In this document: positions 37,032 to 55,969 of the stretch, in pieces
How positions within the stretch are numbered: position 1 is the stretch's first letter
Layout of the letters: each line of letters opens with the position of its first letter
DNA from: an uncultured Lachnospiraceae bacterium
GTDB lineage: Bacteria; Bacillota; Clostridia; Lachnospirales; Lachnospiraceae
Direction of reading: 5' to 3'
Assembly (NCBI GenBank): GCA_947644545.1
Contig: CANRZW010000019.1
Coordinates: 1-64,000 of the forward strand
Length of the DNA: 64,000 nt
Notes under the pieces: model-generated
Told to the model about the DNA's origin: nothing
Seen by the model: the letters and a program-made list of their open reading frames with translations, nothing else
Database searches by the model: none
Position numbers and translations under genes: made by a program

Positions 37032-37089
37032 TTTATGAAAAGCTTTCGGATTTCGATCCGGGAGTTTTTTTAATCCGGGATTCTTTTTT

Positions 37090-37105
37090 CTTACAGTTTT
37101 GTAAG
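37090..37105. promoter_or_regulatory. 16-bp palindrome upstream of a response regulator gene
   Basis: CTTACAGTTTTGTAAG is a perfect inverted repeat (CTTACA-N4-TGTAAG). A TATAGT -10 (37133-37138) lies 27 nt downstream. Related palindromes stand before three ABC operons in this window (39160, 46202 and 55916), pointing to binding by the BceR-like regulators. Confidence 0.7.
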
Positions 37106-37183
37106 CTGATGCAATTTGATTCCCGTCTGTGGTATAGTAGCAGTAGCTTGTCAGTTTGTGATAAGAACCGGAGGGATGTGCGG

Positions 37184-37888
37184 GTGCAGAGAATATTGTT
37201 GTTGGAGGATGATAGCAGTCTGATCGACGGGCTGACTTATTCGCTTAAGAAGAACGGATTTGAGATAACGGTAGTAAGATCGGTGCGGGAGGCCGGGGCG
37301 CTGCTTACGGGAACAGACAGGACATTTGACCTGCTTCTTTTTGACGTGACGCTGCCGGACGGGAATGGATTTGACTTGTGTGAGCGGCTGCGGACAGCGG
37401 GGAATGAGACGCCGATCATATTTCTGACGGCCTCGGACGAGGAAACCAGTGTGATCAGAGGATTAGACTGCGGCGGGGATGATTATATCACGAAGCCTTT
37501 TAAGCTGGGGGAATTGTGCTCGCGGATCAGAGCGCTGCTGCGGCGCAGCACAGGACGCAGAAACGAGAACGGAATGCTCAGGTCCGGCGATCTTGTCGTG
37601 AATCTGACGGAGGGCAGGGTGACACTGCGGGGAGAGTATCTGGAGTTTACGGGGGCGGAGTATCGACTGTTGTGCCTGTTTCTTCTAAACAGCGGGAAGG
37701 TTCTCACCCGCGCGGTGATCCTTGATAAGCTGTGGGACGGCGCCGGGAACTTCGTGGACGATAATACGCTGTCTGTGTATGTGCGCAGGCTGCGGGAGAA
37801 ACTGGAACGGGATCCTTCGGCGCCGGAACATTTGAAAACGGTCAGGGGATTAGGATATCGATGGACGGAAGCAGGAGGAATGGAGTGA
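37184..37888 (+). CDS. BceR/VanR-like OmpR-family response regulator
   Basis: A 234-residue regulator. ILLLEDDSSLIDGL gives the acidic pair (Asp9/Asp10); phospho-Asp54 is in LLLFDVTLPDGNGFDLC, Lys in YITKPFKLGEL. The winged helix ends HLKTVRGLGYRW. The GTG at 37184 is chosen since GGAGGG at 37170-37175 sits 8 nt away; GTG 37178 would be only 2 nt from it. It is a close paralogue of the regulator at 54159 (shared LEDDxSLxxGLxxxLKK and SLPDG/TLPDG segments). It heads a four-gene module: RR, HK, ABC ATPase, permease. Confidence 0.93.
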   Translation: MQRILLLEDDSSLIDGLTYSLKKNGFEITVVRSVREAGALLTGTDRTFDLLLFDVTLPDGNGFDLCERLRTAGNETPIIFLTASDEETSVIRGLDCGGDDYITKPFKLGELCSRIRALLRRSTGRRNENGMLRSGDLVVNLTEGRVTLRGEYLEFTGAEYRLLCLFLLNSGKVLTRAVILDKLWDGAGNFVDDNTLSVYVRRLREKLERDPSAPEHLKTVRGLGYRWTEAGGME

Positions 37889-39132
37889 GAAGAATGGACG
37901 GCCTGTGTTTTTTACAGGAGAGACAGACCCGGCAGATGTACGGGTTTCTATGTACAGTCTGCGTTTTGCAGGCTTTCTTTTTGGGGATCTGCGGTGTGTG
38001 GCATGTGGTTGATGTCCGGCATGTGCTGGTGGAGCGGGAGCTGGCGGCGGCCTCTTATCTGCTGGAGCAGGAGATTGCGCCTGCTATGGTCGCGGCGGCC
38101 TGGAACCACACGGAAGTGACGGAGGCGGGCAGAAACCTGCTTTCACAGATCGGGCATACGGAGCAGACGCGCAGTTATCTGGTGCTGCTTGCCGGGCAGA
38201 CGTCAGTGCCCTTACTGCTGACATTGCTTGCAGGAGGCGTTCTTTTTGGGGCAGCGCTGTTGATCAGTACGGCGCTTTTTTTACAGAAAAGAGAGCAGGT
38301 CTACAGGGAAGCAGAAAGGATCGTTACCGGATATGTGTGTGAACGGTTTGTGAAGCAGCTGCCAGTGGGAGAGCCGGGCGCTCTCTATCAGCTGTTTGGC
38401 AGAGTGGAGCAGCTGTCGCTGTCGCTGCAGGCCAAAAGCGAGACAGAGCGTCGGGCGAAGGAGTTCCTGCGGGATATGATCTCGGATATTTCCCATCAGC
38501 TGAAAACGCCGTTGGCGGCGCTTACCATGTATATGGAGATCATGGCGGAGGAGGCCTGGCGGGAAGAAACCGTGCGCAGGTTTACGAAGAAGTCCATGCA
38601 GTCGCTGGAGCGGATGGAGCAGCTGATCCTGTCACTCCTGAAAATGGCGCGGCTGGATACGGGGAATATCGTCTTCGAGAAACGGCAGTGTTATGTGGAA
38701 GAGGTGGTGTCTGAGGCAGTGGGGGAATTGTCGGAAAGGGCGGCACGGGAAGGAAAGAGGATCCTGCGGGAGGGACAGCCGGAGGAGAAGATCTGCTGTG
38801 ACCTGGTCTGGACGAAGGAGGTACTGGCCAATCTTGTCAAAAATGCACTGGATCATACGGAAGCCGGCGGCACAATTCGGATCCTGTGGCGTCGGTCTCC
38901 TGCGCTGCTGCAGATTTCCGTGGCGGACGACGGGTGCGGCATCCTGCCGGAAGATATCCATCACATCTTCAAACGCTTCTACCAGAGCAGGCAGGCGTCT
39001 GACAGGCAGGGTGTGGGGCTGGGGCTTTTCCTGGCGAAGAAGATCGTGGAAGAGCAGGGAGGCAGTCTGTCTGTGGAGAGCCGTCCGGGAGAGGGCAGCG
39101 TGTTTCGGATCTCGTTTCCCCTTTCAAGCTGA
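37885..39132 (+). CDS. Sensor histidine kinase
   Basis: A 415-residue kinase with two transmembrane helices (residues about 18-40 and 110-135) bracketing a roughly 70-residue external sensor. A HAMP-like linker precedes the phosphoacceptor motif DISHQLKTPLAALTMYMEIM. The ATP-binding boxes are NLVKNALDHTEAGG, VADDGCGILPED, FKRFYQSRQ and GVGLGLFLAKKI. The GTG at 37885 overlaps the regulator stop (GTGA) and has AGGAGG 6 nt upstream; the ATG at 37894 is an alternative. It is paralogous to the kinase at 54873, which has a shorter external loop, so ligand recognition may differ. Confidence 0.9.
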   Translation: MRRMDGLCFLQERQTRQMYGFLCTVCVLQAFFLGICGVWHVVDVRHVLVERELAAASYLLEQEIAPAMVAAAWNHTEVTEAGRNLLSQIGHTEQTRSYLVLLAGQTSVPLLLTLLAGGVLFGAALLISTALFLQKREQVYREAERIVTGYVCERFVKQLPVGEPGALYQLFGRVEQLSLSLQAKSETERRAKEFLRDMISDISHQLKTPLAALTMYMEIMAEEAWREETVRRFTKKSMQSLERMEQLILSLLKMARLDTGNIVFEKRQCYVEEVVSEAVGELSERAAREGKRILREGQPEEKICCDLVWTKEVLANLVKNALDHTEAGGTIRILWRRSPALLQISVADDGCGILPEDIHHIFKRFYQSRQASDRQGVGLGLFLAKKIVEEQGGSLSVESRPGEGSVFRISFPLSS

Positions 39133-39159
39133 GCGGAAGGGAAAGGAATCTGTCTGCAG

Positions 39160-39213
39160 CTTACGATTCTGTAAGATGAGATTCACCGGGGAGTAAGATT
39201 CGGGTGATATGCT
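39160..39213 (+). promoter_or_regulatory. Activated promoter with palindromic operator for the ABC exporter
   Basis: CTTACGATTCTGTAAG (39160-39175) differs by one base from a perfect CTTACA-N4-TGTAAG. A second GTAAG half-site begins exactly 22 bp after the first (39193). The -10 TATGCT (39208-39213) starts 32 nt past the palindrome, and there is no -35 consensus, as expected for response-regulator activation. Confidence 0.7.
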
Positions 39214-39285
39214 TTTCCGGTAAGGAACAGGAGACAACATAGATGTTACTGGCCGCAGGGCGTAACGGAAAGGCAGGTTACAGCA

Positions 39286-39969
39286 TTGGAGATCGTAAGA
39301 GTAGAGAATCTGAGCAAGACATACGGAAAGGGAGAGGGCCAGGTGGCGGCTTTGAAGAACGTTTCCTTTTCCATGGAAAGAGGACAGTTTGGGGCTGTGG
39401 TGGGTGTATCCGGATCAGGTAAGAGCACGCTGCTCAACTGTGTGGGCGGACTGGACCGGGCGGATGCCGGTAAGGTCTTTATAGGCGGCAGAGACCTGTT
39501 TGGTATGGACGAGAACGAGCGGACTATCTTCCGCCGGCAGAACATCGGCTTTATCTTCCAGTCGTTTCATCTGATCCAGGAACTGAATGTGGAGCAGAAT
39601 ATCATCTTCCCGCTGCTTCTGGACTACCGGAAACCGGAGCAGGAACGGGTGGAGGAGATGCTGGAAGTGCTGGGGCTGGAGAACAGGCGCAGGCATCTGC
39701 CGGGACAGCTTTCCGGAGGGCAGCAGCAGAGAGTGGCCATCGGGAGGGCGCTGATCACGCGGCCGGCACTGGTTTTGGCTGACGAGCCGACCGGCAATCT
39801 GGATTCCCGAAACAGTCAGGACGTATTGGATCTGCTTTGCAAGGCGTCCAGGCGTTATCAGCAGACCGTTCTGATGATCACCCATAACCGGGATCTGACG
39901 GCATCGGCGGACCGGGTATTCCAGGTGGATGACGGTGTGCTTGACGAGCTGGGAGGTGAGAGGCGATGA
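39286..39969 (+). CDS. BceA/MacB-type ABC ATP-binding protein
   Basis: A 227-residue exporter ATPase with Walker [13 protein letters not shown]-loop [12 protein letters not shown], signature [15 protein letters not shown] and Walker [16 protein letters not shown]. Translation appears to start at TTG 39286 (family N-terminus [13 protein letters not shown]); its RBS is weak. The permease gene overlaps its stop by 4 bp. It is a close paralogue of the ATPase at 56002. Function: powers an FtsX-type exporter probably removing or sensing antimicrobial peptides. Confidence 0.92.
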
Positions 39970-42338
39970 AACATTATCTGGATCTGATCGGAATTTCCGA
40001 AAGACAACACAGGAAACAGGCGCGTATGACCAGACTCTGTATCGCACTGGCGGTCTTTCTGGTGACGGTGATCTTCGGCATGGCAGAGATGGAAATGCGT
40101 TCGCAGATGATACAGGCAGTAAAGAGTGACGGCAGCTGGCACGCGGGTTTTGCAGCGGACACACAGCAGGGGGCCCTGCTCGGTGAGCGGCCGGAGGTGG
40201 AACAGATTGCCCGATACGGCGTGGTGAACTACAGGCTGAAGGACGGTTACCGGATCGAGGGTGTGGAGACTTGCATCTGTGGTCTGGATTGGAATCTGTT
40301 GGAGATGTTTCCGGAGGTGACGATCATAGAGGGAACCTTTCCCAGCCGGCCGGAAGAAGCCGTGTTGAATGAGACGGTCAAAAACCGTCTGGGCCTGCAG
40401 GTGGGCGACAAGATCAGTCTGACGATGCCGCAGGGCGGGAACAGACAGTATGAGATCACCGGGATCACGAAGAATACGATTCTGACAGCGGAGCATGACG
40501 CCTTCGCGATGCTGCTTACCGTGGAGGGATATGATGCGCTGCATACAGGGGAGACGGAGGCGGAAGCGGAGATGCTCTATTTTGTGAAATTCAGAAACTT
40601 CTGTAATATCCAGAGGGCCATCAGTGATATTACGGCGCAGTTCGGCTTCGGGCCGGGGCAGGTGCGGCAGAATGCCAAGGTGCTGGCGCTTATGTTTCAG
40701 AGCAAGGATCCCTACCTGATGCAGTTCTATTTCGTGGCGGCGGTACTGGCAGTGCTGGTGGCGGCTGCTGGCATCTTTATGATCGCGGCAAGCATGAACA
40801 GCAGCATTGCGCGCCGGACGGAGTTTTTTGGGATGCTGCGCTGTCTGGGTGCGACGAAGAAGCAGGTGATTCGATTTGTAAAGAAGGAGGCTCTTGGATG
40901 GTGCCGGCTGTCAGTTCCGGCAGGGCTGCTTGCCGGTGTAGTGGTGGTATGGCTTCTGTGCGGAATGCTGCGGTTCTTAAGTCCGGGGCTTTTCGAGGGA
41001 ATGCCCGTGTTTGGCGTGAGTGTATTAAGCCTTGCGGCGGGCGTCGTACTGGGGGTTACCACGGTACTGCTGGCGGCAGGAGCGCCGGCCAGAAAGGCGG
41101 CAGGGGTATCGCCGCTTACCGCCGTGTCCGGCAACGCGGGAACGGTGCCGGCAGTAAAGCGGGCAGCCGGCACGAGATTCCTTAAGGTGGATGTGGCGCT
41201 GGGAATGCATCATGCCGCGGGCAGTAAGAAGAACTATTTCCTGGTCACAAGCTCCTTTGCGCTGAGCATTATTTTGTTTCTGGCATTCAGCACGGAGATC
41301 GATTTCATGCACCGGGCTATCACGCCGCTGCAGCCCCAGGCGCCGGATCTCTACGTTTACGCCGATGATGATCGGAATCGGATTCCGGCACGGCTTGCCG
41401 GGAAACTGCAGGAGCAGACAACAGGCGTCAGGAGGGCGTTTGGCAGAAGTTATGCCCAGACCACGGGGCTCTTAGACGGGCAGGAGACGCTGTTTACGAT
41501 CCTTTCTTATGACGGGCAGCAGTTCAGGTGGGCGAAACGGGATCTGTTGGAGGGGAGTTTCACGGATGCGGCAGAGGGAAAAGGCGTGCTGCTGGCATGG
41601 CGGGAGAAGGGGCAGATTCCTGCGGGCAGCAAGATCAGGCTGCATCTGGGCGGAGCGGAGAAGGAGGTTTCGGTGGTCGGCATTCTGGGAGGTGTGTCGT
41701 TTCGTTCCGGAAGAAATGCAAATACCGGCAGCGGTGAGATGACGCTGGTCTGTTCCGAAGAACTGTTCCGCGAACTGACCGGAGAAAGCGGATATGCAGT
41801 GTTGGATCTGCAGGTGCAGCCGGATATCACGGATGCAGAGGTGCAGCAGATCAGGAGGCAGATCGAGCAGGCCTGCGGCGCTTCTATCTCTTTTTCGGAT
41901 AAAAGGATGAGCAATCGGGAGGTGAAGGGGGCGGGTTATTCGCTGGCGGTCTTTCTCTATGGGTTCCTGATCATCATTGCGCTGCTGGCCTTTTTCAACA
42001 TCATCAACTGTATCGCCATGAGTGTGTCGGCGAGAATGCGGGAATATGGGTTCATGCGGGCTGTCGGCATGAGCAGTCGTCAGCTTCTGCGGATGATCGT
42101 GGGGGAGACCTTGTCCTATATGGTGTCCAGTCTTGTCGTCGGGTGTCTGATCGGCCTGCCGCTCAATCGGATGCTGTTTCAGTCACTGGTTACCTCCCGC
42201 TGGGGTGAGGCCTGGGAAGTTCCGGTATGGGAACTTATCATGATTGTGTCAGTGATGGCGGTGGCGGTCTGTATGGCGGTGATGGGGCCGGCGAAACGAA
42301 TCAGGCGGGAGGGCACAGAGTTCGGTTTATCAGCGTGA
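39966..42338 (+). CDS. FtsX-type ABC permease
   Basis: A 790-residue permease. An N-terminal helix (about 22-42), a roughly 200-residue external domain, helices near 253-283, 313-340 and 355-378, then a helix near 427-447, a second external domain of about 200 residues and final helices near 660-690, 710-740 and 757-780. The coupling segments read FFGMLRCLGATKKQVIRFVKKEAL and EYGFMRAVGMSSRQLLRMI. It is paralogous to the permease at 56682, sharing the N-terminal ISERQHRKQARMT / [13 protein letters not shown]-type entry. It forms the exporter with the preceding ATPase. Confidence 0.9.
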   Translation: MKHYLDLIGISERQHRKQARMTRLCIALAVFLVTVIFGMAEMEMRSQMIQAVKSDGSWHAGFAADTQQGALLGERPEVEQIARYGVVNYRLKDGYRIEGVETCICGLDWNLLEMFPEVTIIEGTFPSRPEEAVLNETVKNRLGLQVGDKISLTMPQGGNRQYEITGITKNTILTAEHDAFAMLLTVEGYDALHTGETEAEAEMLYFVKFRNFCNIQRAISDITAQFGFGPGQVRQNAKVLALMFQSKDPYLMQFYFVAAVLAVLVAAAGIFMIAASMNSSIARRTEFFGMLRCLGATKKQVIRFVKKEALGWCRLSVPAGLLAGVVVVWLLCGMLRFLSPGLFEGMPVFGVSVLSLAAGVVLGVTTVLLAAGAPARKAAGVSPLTAVSGNAGTVPAVKRAAGTRFLKVDVALGMHHAAGSKKNYFLVTSSFALSIILFLAFSTEIDFMHRAITPLQPQAPDLYVYADDDRNRIPARLAGKLQEQTTGVRRAFGRSYAQTTGLLDGQETLFTILSYDGQQFRWAKRDLLEGSFTDAAEGKGVLLAWREKGQIPAGSKIRLHLGGAEKEVSVVGILGGVSFRSGRNANTGSGEMTLVCSEELFRELTGESGYAVLDLQVQPDITDAEVQQIRRQIEQACGASISFSDKRMSNREVKGAGYSLAVFLYGFLIIIALLAFFNIINCIAMSVSARMREYGFMRAVGMSSRQLLRMIVGETLSYMVSSLVVGCLIGLPLNRMLFQSLVTSRWGEAWEVPVWELIMIVSVMAVAVCMAVMGPAKRIRREGTEFGLSA

Positions 42339-42355
42339 AGAGCGTGAGAATGCGG

Positions 42356-42384
42356 TTTACACTTTCTGAGCGCTTTGCTATAAT
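42356..42384 (+). promoter_or_regulatory. Sigma-A promoter of the MgtC-family gene
   Basis: TTTACA (42356-42361), 17 bases, TATAAT (42379-42384), beginning 18 nt after the permease stop. This separates the gene from the ABC operon. Confidence 0.8.
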
Positions 42385-42430
42385 TATCTTGTAGCATTTG
42401 ATCGGTCGAGAATCCGCAGGGGGAATCATT

Positions 42431-43123
42431 ATGGGAAATGCAGCGGCGGAAATAGCCTCCGAAATATCATTGTTGTCAGTCATCCTGCGCCTGGCGTTTG
42501 CCACGTTTATCGGTGCCCTGGTGGGCGTGGAGCGCAGCAGCAGAGGGCGGGGTGCGGGTGTGAAGACCCATGCACTGGTGTGTATGGGGGCGGCGCTTGT
42601 GATGCTGACCAGCGAATATATGCGGATTAGTTTACATAATGCTGGTGATATGGCCCGTATGGGCGCGCAGATTATTAGCGGTATCGGTTTTCTGGGTGCG
42701 GGGACGATTATCGTCACCGGACGCAACCACGTGAGAGGGCTGACCACGGCTGCCGGACTCTGGGTATGTGCCTGCGAGGGAATGGCAGTGGGAATCGGCT
42801 TCTGGAAGGGCGCGGTGGTGGCGTTACTGTTTATTATGCTGACGCTGCGTGTGTTAGTGAAGCTGGATCAGAACCTGCACAGTCATGCGAAATCCTTTGA
42901 GCTGTATGTGGAGTTCGACGAGGGCGCGGATATCCGTCAGTTTATGAAGGAAGTGAATATGCGCAATGCAGTGCTTAAGGGCATGGAGATGGCGAGGGGG
43001 AAGATCGATCCGAATGACAAGTCGGTGATCGCCAGTTTTGAGATGTACAGGGGCAAGGACCGGCCGGATCTGGTACAGTGGATCCGCAGCCAGAAGTACA
43101 TATTGTTTGTAGAAGAGCTGTAG
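42431..43123 (+). CDS. MgtC/SapB-family inner-membrane protein
   Basis: A 230-residue protein. The N-terminal MgtC domain has four to five helices with FATFIGALVGVERSSRGRGAGVKTHALVCMGAALVML and the conserved GIGFLGAGTIIV motif. The C-terminal roughly 80-residue cytoplasmic domain (KSFELYVEFDEGADIRQFMKEV) resembles an ACT-like fold. MgtC proteins help growth at low magnesium and interact with the ATP synthase or with envelope systems in pathogens; the role in commensals is unclear. ATG 42431 has AGGGGGAA upstream. Its stop codon lies within the stem of a terminator shared with the convergent permease gene. Confidence 0.9.
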   Translation: MGNAAAEIASEISLLSVILRLAFATFIGALVGVERSSRGRGAGVKTHALVCMGAALVMLTSEYMRISLHNAGDMARMGAQIISGIGFLGAGTIIVTGRNHVRGLTTAAGLWVCACEGMAVGIGFWKGAVVALLFIMLTLRVLVKLDQNLHSHAKSFELYVEFDEGADIRQFMKEVNMRNAVLKGMEMARGKIDPNDKSVIASFEMYRGKDRPDLVQWIRSQKYILFVEEL

Positions 43124-43149
43124 GGAATTTACTCCCCTACAGCTCTTTT
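43114..43149 (+). terminator. Terminator embedded in two convergent 3' ends
   Basis: AGAGCTGTAGGG (43114-43125) and CCCTACAGCTCT (43135-43146) form a perfect 12-bp stem with a 9-nt loop and a TTTT tail on the plus strand. The left arm holds the mgtC stop codon; the loop and right arm hold the last codons and stop of the minus-strand permease. Confidence 0.85.
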
Positions 43150-45375
43150 AAACAGGATCCAGGTGCTGAGGAAATAGCACACCAGCAGGATCGACAGAAT
43201 CAGTGCCGTGACGGCAATCTGCGCGGCCAGAGTCCGGAAACCGATATAGGCGGTGATCTGGTCTCGAATGGTCGTGAAGAAGTAGGCAGCCAGGACGGCA
43301 GCCGTCAGCACGGCAGCGGTCACGGGCAGGCCGAACCAGATGCGCAGCTGCTTTACGATCAGCTTCTCGATATCACGTTCCTCCACGCCCAGTTTCCGCA
43401 GTACGCCGAAGCGGCAGCGGTATTGTGAGGCGTCTGACAGCTGCTGCAGGGAGAGGATCGTCAGACAGATCACCATCAGGATGACGCCGCTGTAGGCCAT
43501 CATGGCATGGGTGGTGAAAATAGCCGCTTTCGAGCTGTTTACCTGCATGGTTCTGGTGCGGAGATAGTAATTGACACCCTCGTGGCCGGCGGGTTCTTCC
43601 GGATATCGTTCCATAAAGGTTTCCTGTAGCTGCAGGGCATCCTGATAGGCGATCGGCTCTTTCGTCTGCAGATAACGGTTTTGCATGACGGGAAGCAGCT
43701 GTTTGCAGACGGCGTCCGGGAAAATATAGATGACATCCGTGTAGCGGTTGTAGAGGGTTTCGCCCAGCACTTCCGTGTAATAGACGGGACTGCCGGTCAG
43801 TACGCCTGCATCGGTCTTTACCGTGCCATGTTCCGCCAGAAATTTCTCCCGGTAATCGGCAGTGGCGATCGGATGCCACTGGGTGGCAAATTCCTTTTCC
43901 CCAAGCGTTACAGGCGCGTAGCCCAGCATGGTCCGCAGAGTGTTGTAATCGGAGAGGGCGATGGCCGCCACCGGAAAATCTAATTTCACCCGGTTGCGAA
44001 ATTCTTCTCTGCGGGGCAGGTACAGGTGGAAGGTGCAGTCCATGTCAGGTTCTATCCCGTGTTCTTCCAGAAAATCGCTCACCGGTTCATAGCCCTTTGT
44101 GGGCAGGTCTTTTTCATCATAAACATTGTTATAAGCAGTGCTGATCTGTACATCATACAGGGCACGGATCTCAAGATAACCGGAAGCCCATTCGGTCAGC
44201 GCAGGTGCGACCAGGAAGAGGAAGAGCGACAGCACAAGCGTCAGGCAGATTAACGTCATGGTCTTGGCCGTGGTGGTCAGCCGGGAGATGATCTGTCCGA
44301 AGAAGAAAAGGTTCTGGCCGCTGTAGGTGTGGGCCGGCCTCTTCTCTTTCCAGAGACAGATGACTTCGCCTGCCAGGTAAAAAATGCCGCAGATCAGATA
44401 GATCAGGTCTGACAGCAGAAACATCAGATACGTGTTGGCGCCCGTGTCGAAACCCAGAGCGGAAGTGCCGAAAGAAATATGATAGCGGGCACAGACAGGG
44501 GGGACGCTGGCAGAGAAACAGATATTAAGTATGGTAAGGATCAGTTCCGGCACAAGAAGCCGGCGGAAGTTCCACGTGTTCTTCCGGACGGCTTTGGCGG
44601 CTAGCCAGATAAAGTGCCATGTAAAAGCCAGCAGAGGGGACAGGAGATTTCCCCAGAACATTACCCGTGCCGGCAGCGGGAAACGGGGATCGTAATATAA
44701 ATGCAGTTTGGAGATTCCCGAAAGCGTCATGGTAAGCAGAACGATGCCGTGCAGTACGGTGGCTGCCGGCATATAGCGGCTGTCGGCAAGCTGCGGGTCA
44801 TTTTGTCTGTCGGCGTAGAGCATGTCGATGACCTTGATCCGGCGCAGCGTGCGGACATTGAACAGACCGACCGCAAGCAGGCTTAGGGCAAAGAAGCACA
44901 CGGTAAAAAAGACCGTATCCGGAAACAACATAAAGGACAGCCGGAATGTCAGACCGTACTGGGACAGCAGCATGGCTGTGATCAGCTGGGAACAGAGCAT
45001 TCCGAGCACGATGCCTGCCAGAACACATACGGCGCCAAGTATGAAGGTTTCCGCAAAGAAAAGCCAGGCGATGGTCCGCTGTTCCATACCGAGTACGGAC
45101 TGTATTGCGAATTCTTTCTGTCGGCGTCTTAGCATGTAATTGTTCACATAGCGGATCAGGAACAGGAGCAGCAGCGTGATGCAGACGACAGCCAGCTTTA
45201 TGTTACTGCCCAGTATGGTAAAGTCGTATTCCGCACCCACCTCCGGCCTGTAATAGCGGCTGGTGATGGAAAGGAACGCATAAAAAAGCATGGAGCAGAT
45301 CGTCAGCGTGACGATATAGATCAAATAGTCTTTGGCGGAACGCTTCATATTCCGCAGGATTAGTTTAGCATACAT
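43129..45375 (-). CDS. BceB-type ABC permease
   Basis: A 748-residue permease with the BceB/VraG architecture: MYAKLILRNMKRSAKDYLIYIVTLT at the start, about ten helices, and one large external domain (about residues 420-620) between helices 7 and 8, the part that binds peptide antibiotics in studied systems. Coupling segment: KEFAIQSVLGMEQRTIAW. ATG 45375 is chosen because AGGAGGTGG lies 9 nt upstream; it overlaps the ATPase gene by 11 bp. Together with the ATPase, kinase and regulator on the same strand it makes a complete Bce-type detoxification module. Confidence 0.92.
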   Translation of the reverse strand: MYAKLILRNMKRSAKDYLIYIVTLTICSMLFYAFLSITSRYYRPEVGAEYDFTILGSNIKLAVVCITLLLLFLIRYVNNYMLRRRQKEFAIQSVLGMEQRTIAWLFFAETFILGAVCVLAGIVLGMLCSQLITAMLLSQYGLTFRLSFMLFPDTVFFTVCFFALSLLAVGLFNVRTLRRIKVIDMLYADRQNDPQLADSRYMPAATVLHGIVLLTMTLSGISKLHLYYDPRFPLPARVMFWGNLLSPLLAFTWHFIWLAAKAVRKNTWNFRRLLVPELILTILNICFSASVPPVCARYHISFGTSALGFDTGANTYLMFLLSDLIYLICGIFYLAGEVICLWKEKRPAHTYSGQNLFFFGQIISRLTTTAKTMTLICLTLVLSLFLFLVAPALTEWASGYLEIRALYDVQISTAYNNVYDEKDLPTKGYEPVSDFLEEHGIEPDMDCTFHLYLPRREEFRNRVKLDFPVAAIALSDYNTLRTMLGYAPVTLGEKEFATQWHPIATADYREKFLAEHGTVKTDAGVLTGSPVYYTEVLGETLYNRYTDVIYIFPDAVCKQLLPVMQNRYLQTKEPIAYQDALQLQETFMERYPEEPAGHEGVNYYLRTRTMQVNSSKAAIFTTHAMMAYSGVILMVICLTILSLQQLSDASQYRCRFGVLRKLGVEERDIEKLIVKQLRIWFGLPVTAAVLTAAVLAAYFFTTIRDQITAYIGFRTLAAQIAVTALILSILLVCYFLSTWILFKRAVGE

Positions 45376-46132: not shown

Positions 46133-46163
46133 AATTAGTTTACCTCCTTTTTTGTATGGTTCC

Positions 46164-46228: not shown

Positions 46229-46274
46229 ATATTGGCGGCGGGCAGCAAAGAATAACGAAGTGCAGGAATGGATG

Positions 46275-47989: not shown

Positions 47990-48047
47990 GGCAATCTTTC
48001 CTTTCCGGATCCTTTTCCTGTTTGCGATCATTCATCATATCATATTC

Positions 48048-48085
48048 ATCATGTCATGATAATCCAATGAATTGTGATAATTCAT
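48048..48085. promoter_or_regulatory. Palindromes in the bceR-glnA divergent interval
   Basis: ATCATG-T-CATGAT (48048-48060) and ATGAATT-GTGAT-AATTCAT (48067-48085) are perfect inverted repeats just upstream of the glnA promoter. The second is a good candidate for a nitrogen or glutamine regulator site. The preceding 48030-48060 is a run of ATCAT-like repeats. Confidence 0.5.
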
Positions 48086-48099
48086 TGCAGAAGAATCGC

Positions 48100-48128
48100 T
48101 TTACACCTTTCGCAAAATCCACTACAAT
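48100..48128 (+). promoter_or_regulatory. Sigma-A promoter of glnA
   Basis: TTTACA (48100-48105), 17 bases, TACAAT (48123-48128). It starts 14 nt downstream of the ATGAATT palindrome. Confidence 0.75.
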
Positions 48129-48199
48129 AAGTATACAGGTAATCCTACGATGTGGCAAGGAAGAGAAGACTAAGAAATGATAACGAGGAGGACGGGGTT

Positions 48200-49636: not shown

Positions 49637-49647
49637 AAAGACAGGAA

Positions 49648-49686
49648 GTTACCCTGAGATGTCAAAGAGTGGCGTCTTAGGGTAAC
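49648..49686 (+). terminator. Hairpin after glnA
   Basis: GTTACCCT (49648-49655) pairs with AGGGTAAC (49679-49686), extended by AGA/TCT after one mismatch. No T-tract follows, so it may be a 3'-end stabilising structure more than an efficient terminator. Confidence 0.5.
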
Positions 49687-49727
49687 AAAGCAAGATATTT
49701 ATTAAAGAGAGTGATATTTTAGGAATC

Positions 49728-51056
49728 ATGAACTATGATCTGACAGAAGGAAAAATCGTACATAAGCTGCTGAGGTTTGCATTCCCCATCATGGTGGGGA
49801 ATCTGCTCCAGCAGCTGTATAATGTTGTGGACACTTTGATCGTTGGGAGGTATCTGGGAGAAAATGCGCTGGCGGCGGTGGGATCTTCGTATACGCTGAT
49901 GGTGTTTATTACGTCTATCATCATCGGGCTGTGCATGGGCAGCAGCGCCTTTTTCTCCATACAGTTTGGCAGCAGGGATCAGGACAGGCTGGAAAAAGGA
50001 ATCTATATTGCGTTTTTGTCTATCGGACTGGTAGCGGTGGTATTGAATGTGGCAGTGTATCTTGGTATGAGCGGGATTCTCGTCTTTCTGCGCGTGCCGG
50101 GTGAGGTGACGGCGCTGATGCGGGAGTATCTGGTATGGATCTTTGCCGGGATCATGGCGGTGTTCTTCTATAATTTTGTGGCCAATCTGCTGCGGGCGGT
50201 AGGTAATTCGGTAGTGCCGCTTCTGTTTCTGGCGGTGTCGGCGCTGGCTAATATCGTGCTGGATCTGCTTTTTATCAGAGGCTTTGGCTGGGGTGTGGGC
50301 GGCGCTGCGTCGGCTACGGTCATCTCCCAGTATCTGGCGGGCATCGGCATCGCAGTATATTATTTGAGGAAATATCCAAAGCTTCGGGTCTCCGGGAAGA
50401 ATTGTCGGTTTGACTTGCAAATCCTGAAAGAGCTGGCGGGACTTTCGTCTCTGACCTGTCTGCAGCAGTCTATCATGAATTTCGGTATTCTGATGGTACA
50501 GGGGCTGGTCAACAGCTTTGGCCCGGTGGTGATGGCGGCCTTTGCGGCGGCGGTGAAGATCGACTCCTTTGCGTATGCGCCGGTGCAGGATTTCGGCAAT
50601 GCCTTTTCCACCTATGTGGCGCAGAATTACGGTGCAGGTAAGACGGAGCGGATCCGCAGGGGCATGAAAGATGCAGTCTTAAGCGCTTTTGTCTTCTGCC
50701 TTGTTATCTCTGTGTTGGTGGTGGTATTTGCGAAACCGCTGATGGGGTTATTCTTAAAGGCGGAGAGTGCCAGGGCAATTGCAGTCGGCGTGGGATATCT
50801 GCGTATCGAGGGAGCCTTCTATTTCGGCATCGGTCTGCTGTTTTTGTTCTACGGTTATTATCGCGCCGTGCATAAGCCGGGTATTTCCGTGGTTCTTACG
50901 GTGGTCTCTCTGGGCACAAGAGTGGCGCTGGCCTATGCACTGTCGTCGATTGAGGCGGTGGGTGTGACCGGTATCTGGATGTCCGTGCCCATCGGATGGA
51001 TTCTGGCGGATCTGGCGGGAGCGTGGTATTACTTCCGTGGCCGCAGGAAAGAGTAG
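49728..51056 (+). CDS. MATE-family multidrug/cation exporter
   Basis: A 442-residue membrane protein with 12 predicted helices in two homologous halves. The MATE start is typical: LLRFAFPIMVGNLLQQLYNVVDTLIVGRYLG, followed by AAVGSSYTLMVF; the second half begins ELAGLSSLTCLQQSIMNFGILMVQGLVNSFG. MATE proteins export cationic drugs or metabolites using a Na+ or H+ gradient. The short distance from glnA (91 nt with a hairpin) leaves open whether it has a separate promoter. The substrate is unknown. Confidence 0.93.
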   Translation: MNYDLTEGKIVHKLLRFAFPIMVGNLLQQLYNVVDTLIVGRYLGENALAAVGSSYTLMVFITSIIIGLCMGSSAFFSIQFGSRDQDRLEKGIYIAFLSIGLVAVVLNVAVYLGMSGILVFLRVPGEVTALMREYLVWIFAGIMAVFFYNFVANLLRAVGNSVVPLLFLAVSALANIVLDLLFIRGFGWGVGGAASATVISQYLAGIGIAVYYLRKYPKLRVSGKNCRFDLQILKELAGLSSLTCLQQSIMNFGILMVQGLVNSFGPVVMAAFAAAVKIDSFAYAPVQDFGNAFSTYVAQNYGAGKTERIRRGMKDAVLSAFVFCLVISVLVVVFAKPLMGLFLKAESARAIAVGVGYLRIEGAFYFGIGLLFLFYGYYRAVHKPGISVVLTVVSLGTRVALAYALSSIEAVGVTGIWMSVPIGWILADLAGAWYYFRGRRKE

Positions 51057-51149
51057 GGCGGCGTTGGTTTTTGTATCATATAAATGAGTAAATTCCATAT
51101 GTTTTGTCATATAATAAGGCAGGCCTACAAGATATAAGGAGGTAATGAT

Positions 51150-52124
51150 ATGTGTACGGCAGCAACTTATATGACGAAAGACTTCTACTTCGGACGGACA
51201 TTGGATTATGATTTTTCTTATGGCGATGAGATCGCGGTAACGCCTCGCAGGTATCCCCTGCGGTTTCGGAGTATGGGAATTTTGGATGAGCACTATGCGA
51301 TCATCGGCATGGCGCATGTGGTGGACGATTATCCGCTGTATTATGACGCGGTGAATGAAAAGGGGCTGGGGATGGCCGGCCTGAATTTCGTGGGAAACGC
51401 GAAGTATGGAAACTGGGTTCGGGATAAGGAGAATGTGGCTTCCTTTGAACTGATTCCCTGGCTTCTGGGACAGTGCGGCACGGTGAAAGAGGTGCGGACG
51501 CTGCTTGACAAGATCAATATTACCGATGAACCGTTCAACAAGGATCTGCCCGCCGCGCAGCTGCACTGGCTGATCGCGGACAGGGAGGAAGCGGTTACGG
51601 TGGAGGCGATGGCGGCCGGTCTGAAAGTGGAAGAGAACCCGGTAGGGATCCTGACCAACAATCCGCCCTTCGGTGAGCAGATGTTTTATCTGAACAACTA
51701 TATGGCCCTATCCCCGAAGGCACCCACCAATCATTTCTGCGATAAACTTAAACTGCAGACTTACAGCCGTGGCATGGGGGCCATCGGATTACCGGGGGAT
51801 CTGTCTTCCCAGTCCCGTTTCGTCAGAGCGGCTTTTGTGAAAATGAATTCTGTCTCCGGGGACACGGAGGCGGAGAGCGTAAGCCAGTTTTTTCATATCC
51901 TGGGGTCTGTGGATCAACCGCGGGGATGCTGCGTGCTGGAGGACGGGCAGTATGAGGTGACGATCTTTACATCCTGCTGCAATACGGATAAGGGGATTTA
52001 CTACTATACTACCTATGGGAATCATCAGATTACGGCGGTGGATATGCACAGAGAGAACCTGAACGGCACGGCGCTGATCCGGTACGAGCCGGTAGAGAGC
52101 GAACAGATCCGAATGCAGAATTAG
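51150..52124 (+). CDS. Choloylglycine hydrolase family protein (bile salt hydrolase-like)
   Basis: A 324-residue Ntn hydrolase. The nucleophile is Cys2, exposed after Met removal (MCTAATY). Other family active-site residues are visible: Arg16 (FGRTLDYD), Asp19/Asp21, an Asn in AGLNFVGNA, Asn in GILTNNPPF and Arg in SQSRFVRAAF. It has no signal peptide, so it acts in the cytoplasm. The likely reaction is release of glycine or taurine from conjugated bile acids; penicillin V acylases of the same family cannot be excluded, though the sequence looks like clostridial bile salt hydrolases. The RBS is AAGGAGG. It is a single gene with a TATAAT-like element about 40 nt upstream. Confidence 0.92.
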   Translation: MCTAATYMTKDFYFGRTLDYDFSYGDEIAVTPRRYPLRFRSMGILDEHYAIIGMAHVVDDYPLYYDAVNEKGLGMAGLNFVGNAKYGNWVRDKENVASFELIPWLLGQCGTVKEVRTLLDKINITDEPFNKDLPAAQLHWLIADREEAVTVEAMAAGLKVEENPVGILTNNPPFGEQMFYLNNYMALSPKAPTNHFCDKLKLQTYSRGMGAIGLPGDLSSQSRFVRAAFVKMNSVSGDTEAESVSQFFHILGSVDQPRGCCVLEDGQYEVTIFTSCCNTDKGIYYYTTYGNHQITAVDMHRENLNGTALIRYEPVESEQIRMQN

Positions 52125-52126
52125 GC

Positions 52127-52155
52127 TTGCTATGACAGGGAAAATTTGCTATACT
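52127..52155 (+). promoter_or_regulatory. Promoter of the tandem-receiver gene
   Basis: TTGCTA (52127-52132), 17 bases, TATACT (52150-52155), leaving a leader of about 90 nt. Confidence 0.65.
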
Positions 52156-52250
52156 CAACAATATGAAAAGCACACCTGCGGGCAGCGTTACAGGAAGGAT
52201 GCTGGTGCGCTATACAGAATATACAGTTGCTTGATTAGGAGAGGATAAAG

Positions 52251-53021
52251 ATGGGAAACGTGGTAATTGTCTCAGAGGTTCAGAGTTATCTGATATTATC
52301 ATTGAAGAGTTGGTTTGAGCAGGCGGAATATGATGTCACGATGGTGAAGGCAGACATTAACGCCATCAATAAGATAGAAGAGACGCCGTCTGTTATGGTG
52401 CTTTATGTGGACGAAAATATGCTGGAGGAATTGCAGGCGCTTAATTTCATTAAGGATAAAGCGGCAGAGGGAGATATTCCTCTTTTTGTTGTGGGCGATA
52501 TGGATGAGCTGAATTCGGTGGAGAAGATCATCACGAAGAACCTGATCCGGCAGAGATTTCAGCGGCCGATCAATGTGAATGAAGTGGTGGCTACGATCAG
52601 TCATTATGAGAGAAAGCATGGCAGACAGAATAAGAAGAAGATTCTGGTGGTGGATGATTCCGGTACGATGTTAAGGAACGTGAAGGGGTGGCTGGAAGAG
52701 TCGTATCAGGTCAATCTGGCTAATTCGGCGGCCATGGCGATCAAGGCGTTGTCAACGAACCGGCCGGACCTTGTTCTTCTGGACTATGAGATGCCTATCG
52801 TAGACGGGAAACAGGTATTGGAGATGATCCGCAGCGAGCATGATTTCGCGGATATTCCGGTTATATTCCTGACCAGCAGGGAAGATCAGGAGACCAGAGA
52901 CGGCGCTATGGCTCTGAAACCGGAAGGATATTTGTTAAAGAGTATGGAGCCGGGAGAGATCGTAAAGGCTATTGATGAGTTCTTCGGCGGTCTGAGAAGG
53001 AAGGAACTGGCCGGATTTTAG
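52251..53021 (+). CDS. Orphan tandem-receiver (REC-REC) protein
   Basis: A 256-residue protein with two receiver folds and no output domain. The C-terminal receiver (residues about 128-247) is complete: Asp135/Asp136 in ILVVDDSG, phospho-Asp178 in LVLLDYEMP, Thr208 in FLTSRED, Lys230 in YLLKSMEP. The N-terminal receiver (residues about 1-120) is degenerate: the acidic pair is lost (IVSEVQ), Asp54 may occupy the phosphorylation position, and the usual Lys-Pro is Arg105-Pro106 (FQRPINVNEV). No kinase is adjacent. It could act as a phosphate relay or sink or bind a partner such as a diguanylate or chemotaxis protein. It has its own promoter and a strong terminator. Confidence 0.87.
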   Translation: MGNVVIVSEVQSYLILSLKSWFEQAEYDVTMVKADINAINKIEETPSVMVLYVDENMLEELQALNFIKDKAAEGDIPLFVVGDMDELNSVEKIITKNLIRQRFQRPINVNEVVATISHYERKHGRQNKKKILVVDDSGTMLRNVKGWLEESYQVNLANSAAMAIKALSTNRPDLVLLDYEMPIVDGKQVLEMIRSEHDFADIPVIFLTSREDQETRDGAMALKPEGYLLKSMEPGEIVKAIDEFFGGLRRKELAGF

Positions 53022-53066
53022 GATACTTCCGGAGCCGGGATATAGGCAGACTTATAGAAAAGATAA

Positions 53067-53106
53067 GCACAGAACATGTCAGGTGATCGATGTTCTGTGC
53101 TTTTTG
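53067..53106 (+). terminator. Intrinsic terminator of the tandem-receiver gene
   Basis: GCACAGAACAT (53067-53077) and ATGTTCTGTGC (53090-53100) form a perfect 11-bp stem followed by TTTTTGT. Confidence 0.9.
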
Positions 53107-53193
53107 TATGGATTGCATTGTCAGCTGTCTGCGTCTGCAGAGATTCGTTACGGAAAAGAAATCTGCACAGGCGCTGTTTTACAGGGCGATTGC

Positions 53194-53913
53194 TCAGACC
53201 GTAAAGTCGAAACGTCCACCGGGGGTAGGAATAGCGGTCTCTTCCTGAATATCATCCCAGTTCACATGATTGATCTTATCTAACAGTTCGTCGGCAGTGG
53301 AAGCGTACAGGGTAGTACGTTTGCTGTGCGTATATTCGTACTTGCCGCGCGTGCCGGCATCTGTCTTTGAAGCGGTTTCCTTAGCGTTCTCTTTCTTTTC
53401 CTCGCGGATCTTGTCAATGAATTCCTTCTGGCGTTCTCCGGCTTTCTCTAACTCTGCAAAATAAGATACTTCACCGTTCTTTCCGATATGAACGCCCATG
53501 CGGACTACTTCGTCTTTCTTATCGCCCAGCTGTTTGGTCATTTCGTCCAATTTACCGACTGCGTCGTCAAGAAGAGAGAGATTCTGTTCCTTCACGTCGT
53601 CGTCAGAAGCCATACGTTCCAGTTCCTCAGGATCGATCAGGACGCTGTAATCTTTCGTTCCGCGGGAAAGATAAGAAGCGGCTTCCTCCTCGGATTCATA
53701 GTCGGCTACGATAAAGTCCATGTTGGAATAAGTCTTCTTCAATTCCTGCAGAAGCGCCTTGGCTTTGCTGCTCAGCTGCACGGGATTGCTGTTGGTCTTC
53801 CCTGCGCCGTCTGTTTTGGATGAAGTAGACTGTGACGTTCGGGAAGAGCTCTTTCTATTGACATTATTGTAAGAATTGGTCTGATACGGATGATACCCGT
53901 TTACTTTATTCAT
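53194..53913 (-). CDS. DUF6033-like protein
   Basis: A 239-residue hydrophilic protein. An Asn/Ser/Thr-rich N-terminus (residues 1-45) precedes the core LSSKAKALLQELKKTYSNMDFIVADYESEEEAASYLSRGTKDYSVLIDPEELERMA and a long Lys/Glu-rich helical segment (residues about 150-185, probable coiled coil). It has no signal peptide. The pattern matches proteins annotated as DUF6033 in Lachnospiraceae; function unknown. ATG 53913 is chosen because GGAGGG precedes it by 4-5 nt. It is transcribed toward the tandem-receiver gene, with that gene's terminator between them. Confidence 0.75.
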   Translation of the reverse strand: MNKVNGYHPYQTNSYNNVNRKSSSRTSQSTSSKTDGAGKTNSNPVQLSSKAKALLQELKKTYSNMDFIVADYESEEEAASYLSRGTKDYSVLIDPEELERMASDDDVKEQNLSLLDDAVGKLDEMTKQLGDKKDEVVRMGVHIGKNGEVSYFAELEKAGERQKEFIDKIREEKKENAKETASKTDAGTRGKYEYTHSKRTTLYASTADELLDKINHVNWDDIQEETAIPTPGGRFDFTV

Positions 53914-54158
53914 GTTTCCCTCCATTTTCTGCTTTCCTTAGCTTGAAATCGTAAATCCATTTACTTGTGACCGGCACATATGTGCAAAATTCTTATTATT
54001 TATATCGTAATCGTTCCTTATTTTCTTAACTATGTAAAATAATTTTCGCGGACATTGTGGTTTATGACAGACGATGTTATGATGGAAAACAGGGCTGCCG
54101 AAGGACATGATAAGAAGACCGCCGGCAGGACGAAACAGGGAAAGGGGCAGAATAACGA
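53914..54158. other. Divergent intergenic interval
   Basis: A 245-bp region between the DUF6033-like gene and the next response regulator. It holds a perfect 12-bp palindrome GCACATATGTGC (53974-53985) and, nearer the regulator, CTTAACTATGTAAA (54025-54038), a poor match to the shared operator. TATGAT (54078-54083) is a possible -10. This is where composition shifts to a more AT-rich style, so it may be the left boundary of acquired DNA. Confidence 0.45.
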
Positions 54159-54845
54159 ATGAAACGGTTATTTTTACTGGAAGATGATTTGAGCTTGCTC
54201 AACGGACTTTCCTTTGCCTTAAAGAAACAGGGATATGAAATAGAGGCTGCCCGTACCACACGGGAAGCCGATGCACTCTGGGTAAATGGGAAATATGATC
54301 TGGCTATTCTGGATGTATCGCTGCCTGACGGATCCGGCTTTGATTTTTGCAGGAAGATACGTCAAACGTCAAAAGTACCGATCATGTTTCTCACTGCCGC
54401 GGACGAAGAAACGGATATGATTATGGGACTTGATCTTGGTGGAGATGATTATATAACAAAACCTTTCAAGTTAGCGGTGTTCCTGTCGAGGCTTAACGCG
54501 CTGCTGCGCAGGAGTGAGAATTTCAATACGGCCGTTACGGCATTAAACTCTCATGACATAACGATTGAACTTTTGAAAGGCGAAGCATATAAACAAGGAA
54601 AGCCGCTGGAACTGACGGCGAGTGAGTATAAACTGTTATGCCTGTTCATGGAAAATCCCGACCGGATACTCTCCGCGGCGCAGATCTTAGGAAAGTTATG
54701 GGATTGTAACGAAAACTATATCGATAATAACTCTCTTACCGTATATATTCGCAGGCTTCGCACCAAGATTGAAGACGATCCGGGCAAACCGAGACGAATC
54801 GTTACCGTTCGCGGCATGGGTTATAAATGGAGTGCAACGGATTGA
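54159..54845 (+). CDS. BceR/VanR-like response regulator
   Basis: A 228-residue OmpR-family regulator with Asp9/Asp10 in FLLEDDLSLL, phospho-Asp52 in LAILDVSLPDGSGFDFC, Thr in MFLTAADEE, Lys in YITKPFKLAVF, and a winged helix ending RRIVTVRGMGYKW. It is paralogous to the regulator at 37184 and heads the same gene order: RR, HK, ABC ATPase, permease. Codon use is more AT-rich than in the 37-kb copy, which suggests separate acquisition rather than recent duplication. The RBS is AAAGGGG. Confidence 0.93.
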   Translation: MKRLFLLEDDLSLLNGLSFALKKQGYEIEAARTTREADALWVNGKYDLAILDVSLPDGSGFDFCRKIRQTSKVPIMFLTAADEETDMIMGLDLGGDDYITKPFKLAVFLSRLNALLRRSENFNTAVTALNSHDITIELLKGEAYKQGKPLELTASEYKLLCLFMENPDRILSAAQILGKLWDCNENYIDNNSLTVYIRRLRTKIEDDPGKPRRIVTVRGMGYKWSATD

Positions 54846-54872
54846 AGTGCGAAGTGGAAGCATGGGGGTAGA

Positions 54873-55904
54873 ATGAATATATTTGCGAACCGAAAAATCA
54901 AATTTCTTTTTGATGGCATCTTGCTGTGTACCCTGATTTTCATGTTGATCTCTGTATTATTAGCGGTCTTTGAAATCAGAAACGCAGTATATTACATTAT
55001 AATTTGCAGTTTGTGTATGGCAGTTGCCATTTGGCTTCTTTGCTATGAGTATTTCAGGGAGCAGCATAAAGTCATGGAAACAGCTATATCGCAGATTAGA
55101 GAATATATAGCCGGTAACAAAAATGTTTCCATTGAGTGTAACGACGAGGGTGAACTATACAGGCTGTTCCATGAAGTAAATTCTCTGGTTGCAATCTTAA
55201 ACGCCCACGCGGAAAATGAGAAAAACGCGAAGAAATTTCTGCGTGATACGATATCCGACATTTCGCACCAGTTAAAAACGCCGCTTGCCGCCCTGAATAT
55301 TTATAATGGGCTGATACAGGACGAAGCAAAAGAAAAAGAGCTTTCAACAATACAGGAGTTTAACTTACTTTCCGAGCAGGAGCTTGACCGTATAGAGACA
55401 CTGGTACAAAGCCTTTTGAAGATCACGAAACTGGATGCGGGTACGATTCTGTTGGAAAAGACTTTAGAAAATGTGTCCGAACTTGCGGAGGACATAAAAA
55501 AACAGTTCCTGTTCCGCGCCGGACAGGAGGGAAAAGAAATCTGCCTGTCGGGCAGGGAAGAAGTTACACTGTTATGTGACCGTAACTGGATCATGGAAGC
55601 TGTCGGTAACCTTGTGAAGAACGCCCTTGACCACACGGAAAAAGGCGGCATGATCTGTATCGAGTGGCGGGCGTTTCCTTCTATTGCTCAGATCACCGTC
55701 AAGGATAACGGTAGCGGCATACACCCGGAGGATCTGCACCATATCTTTAAGCGGTTTTATCGGAGCCGTTATTCCAAAGATACACAGGGGATTGGGCTTG
55801 GCCTGTCACTGACAAAGGCGATTGTGGAGGCCCATAACGGGACGATTGAAGTGGACAGCATGTTGGGAGCGGGCACCTCTTTCACGATCAATTTTCTGAT
55901 TTGA
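54873..55904 (+). CDS. Sensor histidine kinase, short-loop type
   Basis: A 343-residue kinase with two N-terminal helices (residues about 10-33 and 37-60) joined by a short loop, resembling intramembrane-sensing kinases. The phosphoacceptor motif is ISDISHQLKTPLAALNIYNGLI, N box AVGNLVKNALDHTEKGG, G1 VKDNGSGIHPED, F box FKRFYRSRYS and G2 GIGLGLSLTKAI. It lies 27 nt after its regulator. The near-identical H and N boxes with the kinase at 37885 raise the possibility of cross-talk between the two modules. Confidence 0.92.
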   Translation: MNIFANRKIKFLFDGILLCTLIFMLISVLLAVFEIRNAVYYIIICSLCMAVAIWLLCYEYFREQHKVMETAISQIREYIAGNKNVSIECNDEGELYRLFHEVNSLVAILNAHAENEKNAKKFLRDTISDISHQLKTPLAALNIYNGLIQDEAKEKELSTIQEFNLLSEQELDRIETLVQSLLKITKLDAGTILLEKTLENVSELAEDIKKQFLFRAGQEGKEICLSGREEVTLLCDRNWIMEAVGNLVKNALDHTEKGGMICIEWRAFPSIAQITVKDNGSGIHPEDLHHIFKRFYRSRYSKDTQGIGLGLSLTKAIVEAHNGTIEVDSMLGAGTSFTINFLI

Positions 55905-55915
55905 AAAATCATATC

Positions 55916-55969
55916 CCTACAAAATTGTAGGCTGGTTGTAATATTGATGTAGGATTGCGCTGTTATATT
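55916..55969 (+). promoter_or_regulatory. Activated promoter with palindromic operator for the second ABC exporter
   Basis: CCTACAAAATTGTAGG (55916-55931) is a perfect 16-bp palindrome of the same layout as those at 37090 and 39160. A second GTAGG half-site starts 22 bp after the first (55949), and the -10 TATATT (55964-55969) begins 32 nt after the palindrome. No -35 consensus is present. Confidence 0.75.

Follow-up and report, generated by a model that had tools for sequence, protein, structure and literature searches.

Proposed composite operators before two MacB-type exporter operons, and a differently arranged Bce-type promoter, in a Lachnospiraceae genome

Introduction

A contig of an uncultured Lachnospiraceae bacterium (assembly GCA_947644545.1, contig CANRZW010000019.1) carries, within its first 64 kb, three modules of regulator, kinase and ATP-binding cassette (ABC) genes, here named M1, M2 and M3; this whole stretch of 64,000 nucleotides (nt) is called the window. 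Similar short palindromes precede the ABC operons of all three, which raises the question whether one element with one promoter geometry controls a set of Bce-like modules, as a first-pass annotation had proposed. M1 and M3 have one architecture, consisting of an inverted repeat, a further half-site at +22 bp and a −10 element at 32 nt that is usually extended by TGn, and M2 is arranged in another way. Judged by the kinase and permease families, the window holds one Bce-type module (M2) and two MacB-type modules (M1 and M3). The gene order regulator, kinase, promoter, ATPase, permease is common to M1 (37184–42338, plus strand), M2 (47989–43129, minus strand) and M3 (54159–59012, plus strand).

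Promoter elements in the window

Four palindromes lie where they had been annotated, those at 37090–37105 and 55916–55931 being exact and those at 39160–39175 and 46213–46228 having one mismatch to CYTACANNNNTGTARG. The M1 promoter (plus strand) begins with the inverted repeat CTTACG-ATTC-TGTAAG (39160–39175), followed by ATTCAC at the +11 position (39181–39186), the half-site AGTAAG 22 bp past the right arm (39192–39197) and a predicted extended −10 element, TGA then TATGCT (39205–39213). In M3 (plus strand) the inverted repeat CCTACAAAATTGTAGG (55916–55931) is followed by two direct half-sites, TGTAAT 11 bp (55937–55942) and TGTAGG 22 bp (55948–55953) past the right arm, and by the predicted extended −10 element, TGT then TATATT (55961–55969). 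The second half-sites at 39193–39197 and 55949–55953 were already in the annotation; the TGn before the −10 elements of M1 and M3 and the M3 half-site at 55937–55942 are additions to it. The palindrome-to-(−10) distance of 32 nt that it gave holds for M1 (39175 to 39208) and M3 (55931 to 55964). As 32 is 22 plus 10, the last half-site of both ends 10 nt before the −10 element, and the element at +11 reaches into the upstream margin of the −35 place.

The Bce-type M2 promoter (minus strand) consists of the inverted repeat CTTACAATTTTGTTAG (46213–46228), a direct half-site TGTAAG 11 bp past the right arm (46202–46207) and a predicted −10 element TACAAT (46164–46169). With its end at 46213, its palindrome stops 43 nt short of the −10 element and is shifted by 11 bp in another layout; the distance appeared as 32 because it had been measured from the end of the +11 half-site (46202 to 46169). 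One geometry shared by all three modules is not supported. A sigma-70 two-hexamer scan of 36900–56100 lists none of the three promoters, which agrees with the annotated absence of a −35 consensus.

The fourth palindrome (37090–37105, plus strand) precedes the M1 regulator gene, has no half-site at +22 and is followed 27 nt on by a −10-like TATAGT (37133–37138); the annotation mentions neither this different spacing nor the missing half-site.

Counting the motif was considered as a proof and rejected, the counts being near chance; the case rests on conservation instead. If up to two mismatches are allowed, 7 matches are present in the window against 3.61 expected, and 7 were reached in 4 of 100 shuffled sequences. 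The exact motif occurs in the 4.07-Mb genome only at 37090 and 55916 (reversed control: 1), and with one mismatch it is rarer (18) than its reversed control (39).

Conservation in the genus

Sixty genomes of the genus, drawn evenly from a larger group, were searched with the three permeases, which matched 42 (M1, E 1e-60), 37 (M3, E 1e-150) and 19 (M2, E 1e-40) of them at these differing thresholds. Loci, at most 30 per query, were examined after turning those on the minus strand, and promoters were picked by the palindrome alone, the −10 element not being used. A promoter is present in 25 of the 30 M1-query loci and 29 of the 30 M3-query loci, and 19 of the 25 M2-query loci were aligned. One M1-query locus (L044) is of the M3 type and the same place as L057, hence 24 M1-type promoters. 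No promoter was found within reach in five M1-query loci (L034, L036, L041, L042, L043); their genomes have a profile match upstream of the permease and on one contig with it, and in four of the five this match precedes the first permease of a tandem. None was found either in L075, a short locus whose permease match begins at residue 39. Six M2-query loci (L088, L089, L093, L097, L099, L100), partial or remote matches with no good site, were left out.

The 24 M1-type, 29 M3-type and 19 M2-type promoters align without gaps and sit, in the related genomes too, between the kinase and ATPase genes. The M1 consensus is CTTACA-N4-TGTAAG-N5-ATTCAC-N5-TGTAAG-N7-TG-N-TATNNT, in which TTCA of the middle element and GTAAG of the downstream half-site are invariant (24/24 each). 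The main M3 subtype reads CCTACAAAATTGTAGG-N5-TGTAAT-N5-TGTAGG-N7-TG-N-TATATT, and a second subtype has A/T as outer bases and a GGAAGC-like middle element. For M2 the consensus is CTGCACTT-CTTACATTTTTGTWAG-AACTT-YGTAAG-AAAA-N2-TGATACAAA-N17-TACAAT. TANNNT follows the palindrome at 32 nt in all 24 M1-type and all 29 M3-type promoters and at 43 nt in all 19 of the M2 type; the extended form TGnTAnnnT stands at exactly 32 in 22/24 (M1) and 24/29 (M3). To locate half-sites, the fit to GTAR was averaged for every offset behind the right arm, and values from 0.55 upwards were listed. This fit is 1.00 at +22 for M1, with none listed at +11; 0.83 at +11 and 0.97 at +22 for M3; and 0.99 at +11 for M2, with none listed at +22.

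Directly before the M2 palindrome CTGCACTT occurs in 16 of the 19 promoters, and TGATACAAA follows it in 13 of 19 (loci L076–L098); the M2 promoter of the window is without CTGCACTT and has kept only ATAC of TGATACAAA. Two permeases in tandem on one strand were seen in four genomes (G010, with loci L067/L137, G005, G012 and G019), and in G010 they go together with a regulator that has the M1-type helix residue and with a hybrid operator.

Conservation beyond the genus

Profiles R1 (M1), R2 (M3) and R3 (M2) were built from the genus promoters, R2 from the 29 genus promoters only. At E 0.01 they match 37, 46 and 22 of the 60 genomes, the training promoters matching by construction. A wider set comprised the best 80 loci that a search through named genomes gave with a permease alignment (A4). 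By title these are mostly Lachnospiraceae (Acetatifactor, Blautia, Mediterraneibacter, Roseburia hominis, Robinsoniella, Kineothrix and many metagenome-assembled genomes), and a few have other titles. Five loci (L283, L295, L301, L304, L352) have no palindrome at the threshold, five further loci are too short upstream, and seven wrong picks (L287, L288, L292, L296, L298, L314, L356) were dropped. In what remains TANNNT stands at 32 in 63/63, and TGnTAnnnT at exactly 32 in 49 of the 52 distinct promoters; the M3 fit to GTAR is 0.92 at +11 and 0.99 at +22. R2 matches somewhere in 76 of the 80 loci, some of which are training genomes under public names. Its matches include every one of the seven dropped loci and all but one of the five that lack a palindrome, the position within the locus not having been checked for each and that of L352 lying far upstream. 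Of the four loci without an R2 match, L283 is a genuine miss despite 4.5 kb upstream, and L336, L346 and L360 have less than 800 bases upstream.

In a class-wide sample of 291 genomes R2 has 24 matches at E 1e-6 or better, in 22 genomes and 15 of 181 genera. Two of them are in the own genome; the other 22 all adjoin homologous M1/M3-type regulator, kinase or ATPase genes, and 16 of these 22 have TGnTAnnnT at exactly 32. R3 matched one other genome of the 291, so that the M2 frame is not class-wide at that threshold. Enrichment of the motif upstream of exporter genes in relatives, which the first-pass annotation had named as its own test, is thus borne out in the form of fixed-geometry promoters before ABC operons.

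Which modules are Bce-type

The annotation had spoken of Bce-like modules in the plural; this stands for M2, with its BceS-like kinase and PsdB/BceB-like permease, and does not for M1 and M3, which have HisKA kinases and MacB_PCD/FtsX permeases. The M2 kinase (46275–47321, minus strand) has BceS (8g3a_D, E 2.1e-29) as its best match in the PDB, and by hydropathy two hydrophobic segments without a loop, as in BceS-like intramembrane sensing. The M2 permease (43129–45408, minus strand) matches PsdB (E 6.6e-12) and BceB (E 3.4e-9) over about its first 200 residues, and a gap in hydropathy at about 410–629 corresponds to one large extracellular domain, as in BceB. The module is completed by a response regulator (47318–47989, minus strand), assigned by domain search and gene order, and an ABC ATPase (45365–46132, minus strand) with a PF00005 match in hmmscan.

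In M1, all on the plus strand, an OmpR-family response regulator (37184–37888, domain search) is followed by a histidine kinase (37861–39132) which, judged by its HisKA domain and a loop of about 55 residues between two hydrophobic segments (domain search and hydropathy), is not BceS-like. The ABC ATPase (39286–39969) matches PF00005 in hmmscan. The permease (39966–42338, 790 residues, domain search and hydropathy) has no PDB match at E 0.001 and contains MacB_PCD and FtsX, and is not BceB-like. M3, also on the plus strand, consists of a response regulator (54159–54845, domain search), a histidine kinase (54873–55904), an ABC ATPase (56002–56685), named by its place and by a blast match to related ATPase genes, and a permease (56673–59012). 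BceS is absent from the 18 PDB matches of the M3 kinase at E 1e-15 or better, among which SrrB is best, and its HisKA domain is canonical; the hydrophobic stretch 8–61 is read as two segments with almost no loop, and in this the hydropathy of the kinase resembles BceS. For the M3 permease, with MacB_PCD and FtsX in the domain search, the sole PDB match is 5xu1 (E 7e-4), and it is likewise not BceB-like. The permeases of M3 and M1 share 36% identity and their regulators 51%.

Proposed mechanism and alternatives

Each ABC operon is very probably activated by the phosphorylated OmpR-family regulator encoded just upstream, acting through a promoter that lacks a −35 element. The data show sequence architecture, conservation, gene order and protein families; that the cognate regulator binds and that it activates instead of repressing, as well as the place where transcription starts, we infer. 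The stimulus would most likely be cell-wall-active peptides, on the ground of analogy only. In M1 and M3 the composite operator would comprise one inverted half-site (CTTACA/CCTACA), followed every 11 bp by a direct one (TGTAAG/TGTARN), with ATTCAC as the putative middle half-site of M1. Since the last half-site ends 10 nt before the mostly TGn-extended −10 element, bound regulators would overlap and flank the −35 place and could recruit RNA polymerase there, and the extended −10 element may compensate for the absent −35. M2 is a Bce-type promoter with related half-sites, in which the palindrome lies 11 bp, or one helical turn, further upstream in a different layout. Some gut Clostridia thus have one kind of landing pad, in versions that differ recognisably between the pumps, at a fixed distance before export-pump genes, where it probably lets a sensor-regulator pair switch each pump on.

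Several points weigh against this proposal. The −10 elements are predictions from the bare sequence, and the +11 position of M1 shows no recognisable half-site. Other regulators could bind, since at E 1e-20 or better the M3 regulator has 30 matches in the own genome, itself among them, and some sites precede genes that adjoin no regulator gene. In addition, R2 matched none of the nine genomes that represent other genera of the same family in the class-wide sample; against a family-wide reading it was also unmatched in the three same-order genomes there.

That the sites are repressor operators, or are bound by another transcription factor family, appears improbable. A repressor would be compatible with a palindrome close to a promoter, the one at 37090 with its other spacing could act as such a site, and the extra sites before other genes have no adjoining regulator gene; however, the lack of a −35 element, operators at a fixed distance upstream of the −10 element and the OmpR-family regulator gene at the ABC modules speak for activation. 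The proposal that AT-rich palindromes arose by chance or are merely inherited, or that they form a small terminator hairpin, can draw on the motif counts and on a scan that lists 55931–55916 (minus strand) as a terminator-like stem. It is hardly tenable given that half-sites and spacing are (nearly) invariant and the intervening bases vary among loci whose permeases are down to 42–43% identical to the query, and that other families, too, have this arrangement by the profile.

Specificity of the three regulators

Overlapping specificity, and hence cross-talk among the three modules, had been concluded from the similar palindromes; it is possible and not indicated, because the profiles separate the promoters, and recognition helices and operator bases differ. 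The window promoters are among the training rows, so that the own scores are flattered: R1 gives 49.5 bits for M1, 8.8 for M3 and 9.1 for M2; R2 gives 62.7 for M3, 22.4 for M1 and 12.5 for M2; R3 gives 58.2 for M2 and 6.9 for M1 and leaves M3 unmatched. The gap between the own and the best other profile amounts to 27 (M1), 54 (M3) and 46 bits (M2), with the same reservation. Typical recognition helices are DDNTLSVYVRRLREK (M1), DN[NK][ST]LTVYIRRLR[TM]K (M3) and DDNALSVNINRIRDK (M2). A table of helix residues and operator bases lacks 18 loci without a usable regulator or ATPase match, and 10 of its 106 M1/M3-type rows were dropped (nine without a −10 element at 32 at the chosen site, one with an unmatched helix). 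Among 70 distinct M1/M3-type combinations, those with aspartate (D) as the second residue of the helix have A at operator position 15 (19/19), and those with another residue there (N, S, G or H) mostly have G (44/51); this pairing mostly follows descent, and the combinations are not independent. An M3-clade regulator with D has a partly M1-like operator (L137), and three loci (L326, L350, L361) have an M1-like middle element though the D is absent from the helix.

A shared operator with real cross-talk, where the regulators would bind each other's promoters and form one network, is nevertheless a minority prospect, rather unlikely and not negligible. It would fit the nearly identical half-sites (TGTAAG, TGTAGG), the closeness of the M1 and M3 regulators and the cross-regulation of PsdR and ApsR through similar operators in Lacticaseibacillus paracasei (PMC10858260). 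Against it, no profile scores another module's promoter above 22.4 bits, profile bits not being binding affinities, and the pairing of D with A has no exception, confounded by descent as it is. The evidence leans to separate specificity of the M1, M2 and M3 regulators.

It is the M1 profile that gives the palindrome ahead of the M1 regulator gene its highest score (14.6 bits), and feedback, positive or negative, of the M1 regulator on its own gene through this site is likely. A similar palindrome precedes the regulator gene in L102 and L103, and none does in L104.

Targets outside the modules

With R1 and R2 at E 0.01 the own genome contains M1, M3, one further site (G000:C30:27754–27807) and nothing else. 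This site consists of the inverted repeat ATTACAAAACTGTAAT, GTAAT at +11 and TGTAAG at +22, then TGTTATTCT, and precedes a gene (L216:3990–5660) for a 556-residue membrane protein of the LIC_10190 family, which lies downstream of genes for an NlpC/P60 (PcsB-like) hydrolase, a class II tRNA synthetase and a trigger-factor-like protein. The gene, 70–82% identical, has such a promoter in five more of the 60 genomes (L217, L220, L225, L230, L231), and its site is also present in G056, where neither the M1 nor the M3 permease has a match at the thresholds used.

Altogether 20 extra regions with profile matches were examined, 14 besides those of the 556-residue gene. One (L219) is another M3 module. 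Three (L221, L222, L223) have FtsX permeases with no regulator genes adjoining, and L229 and L235 (L234 by similarity) have an adaptor and a MacB-type exporter, with weak profile matches in L234 (E 3.3e-4) and L235 (E 1.4e-3). A family-2 glycosyltransferase was found in L218. The polytopic proteins of L227 and L228 (676 and 701 residues, 77% identical) have no Pfam or NCBIfam match and give, by hydropathy and sequence, the impression of membrane glycosyltransferases. L232 has a weak DUF308 match, and its promoter recurs in L226, where no gene is close; L224 is without assignment and L233 lies at a contig end. In L221 and L222 an identical promoter stands before an identical M3-like permease of 606 residues, which seems to lack the first extracellular domain; no M1/M3-like regulator gene is in the region shown.

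Relation to known systems

Bce-type palindromes, cross-regulation and WalR direct repeats are already known, and the M1 and M3 operators would be a variant of OmpR-family operators. A palindromic core before an ABC exporter operon, with regulator and kinase genes adjacent, is shared with the operators of BceR, GraR, VirR and PsdR/ApsR. M2 belongs to this group by kinase and permease, whereas M1 and M3 have non-BceS kinases and MacB/FtsX permeases, and add downstream half-sites, in steps of 11 or 22 bp, and in most cases an extended −10 element. By sequence, direct-repeat half-sites at 11-bp steps toward the −35 place are seen in M3 at +11 and +22 and in M1 at +22 only. In the Escherichia coli pho box of PhoB, 11-bp direct repeats end about 10 nt before the −10 element and replace the −35; the half-sites of M1 and M3 are placed comparably, whereas the half-site sequence differs and the inverted upstream half-site exists only in M1 and M3. 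For BceR, a main and a secondary site, b1 and b2, have reportedly been described by Fang et al. in 2017; the shared trait would be a strong palindrome with a weaker site behind it.

The operator consensus of Bce-type systems in L. paracasei is AnnTTACnAnnnnGTnAG (PMC10858260). In a comparison with it by eye, looking for a TTACNANNNNGTNAG-like palindrome, M1 and M2 fit the TTAC and GTnAG parts, and in M3 the first T is replaced by C and GTNAG by GTAGG. For GraR, a Bce-type palindrome is essential for control; unlike in the window, it lies there upstream of −35 sequences (PMC3128592). The WalR/VicR box is TGTWAH-N5-TGTWAH (PMC4168254). TGTAAT-N5-TGTAGG of M3 resembles it as direct hexamer repeats with a 5-bp spacer; unlike the box in this form, the last half-site of M1 and M3 in the window ends with G, outside H (A/T/C), and an extra inverted half-site lies upstream. 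The window promoters of M1 and M3 consequently do not match the box as so defined, and some M3 relatives have T as the sixth base; nothing in the analysis marks WalR as the regulator. A literature search found no paper on the modules or on such an operator before MacB-type ones; no wider absence is claimed.

We tentatively consider a Clostridia-wide promoter class, a reading to which we give somewhat less than even weight. OmpR-family regulators of MacB-type exporter modules would use a composite operator, made up of one inverted half-site and, in steps of 11 bp, two or three direct ones; this operator would stand in for the −35 element and feed an extended −10 element. Paralogous regulators would have kept this frame and changed its bases in step with helix residues, and the regulon would reach polytopic membrane proteins outside the modules, possibly of envelope glycosylation. 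With this sequence signature, exporter-type sensor modules and further targets can be found in gut Clostridia, and the picture of three Bce-type modules is corrected. Dozens of natural regulator-operator pairs with fixed geometry offer material for testing what keeps paralogous response regulators separate when their DNA sites are similar.

Between M1 and M2 lies an MgtC-family gene (42398–43123), which is preceded by a strong sigma-70-like promoter, TTTACA-17-TATAAT, at 42356.

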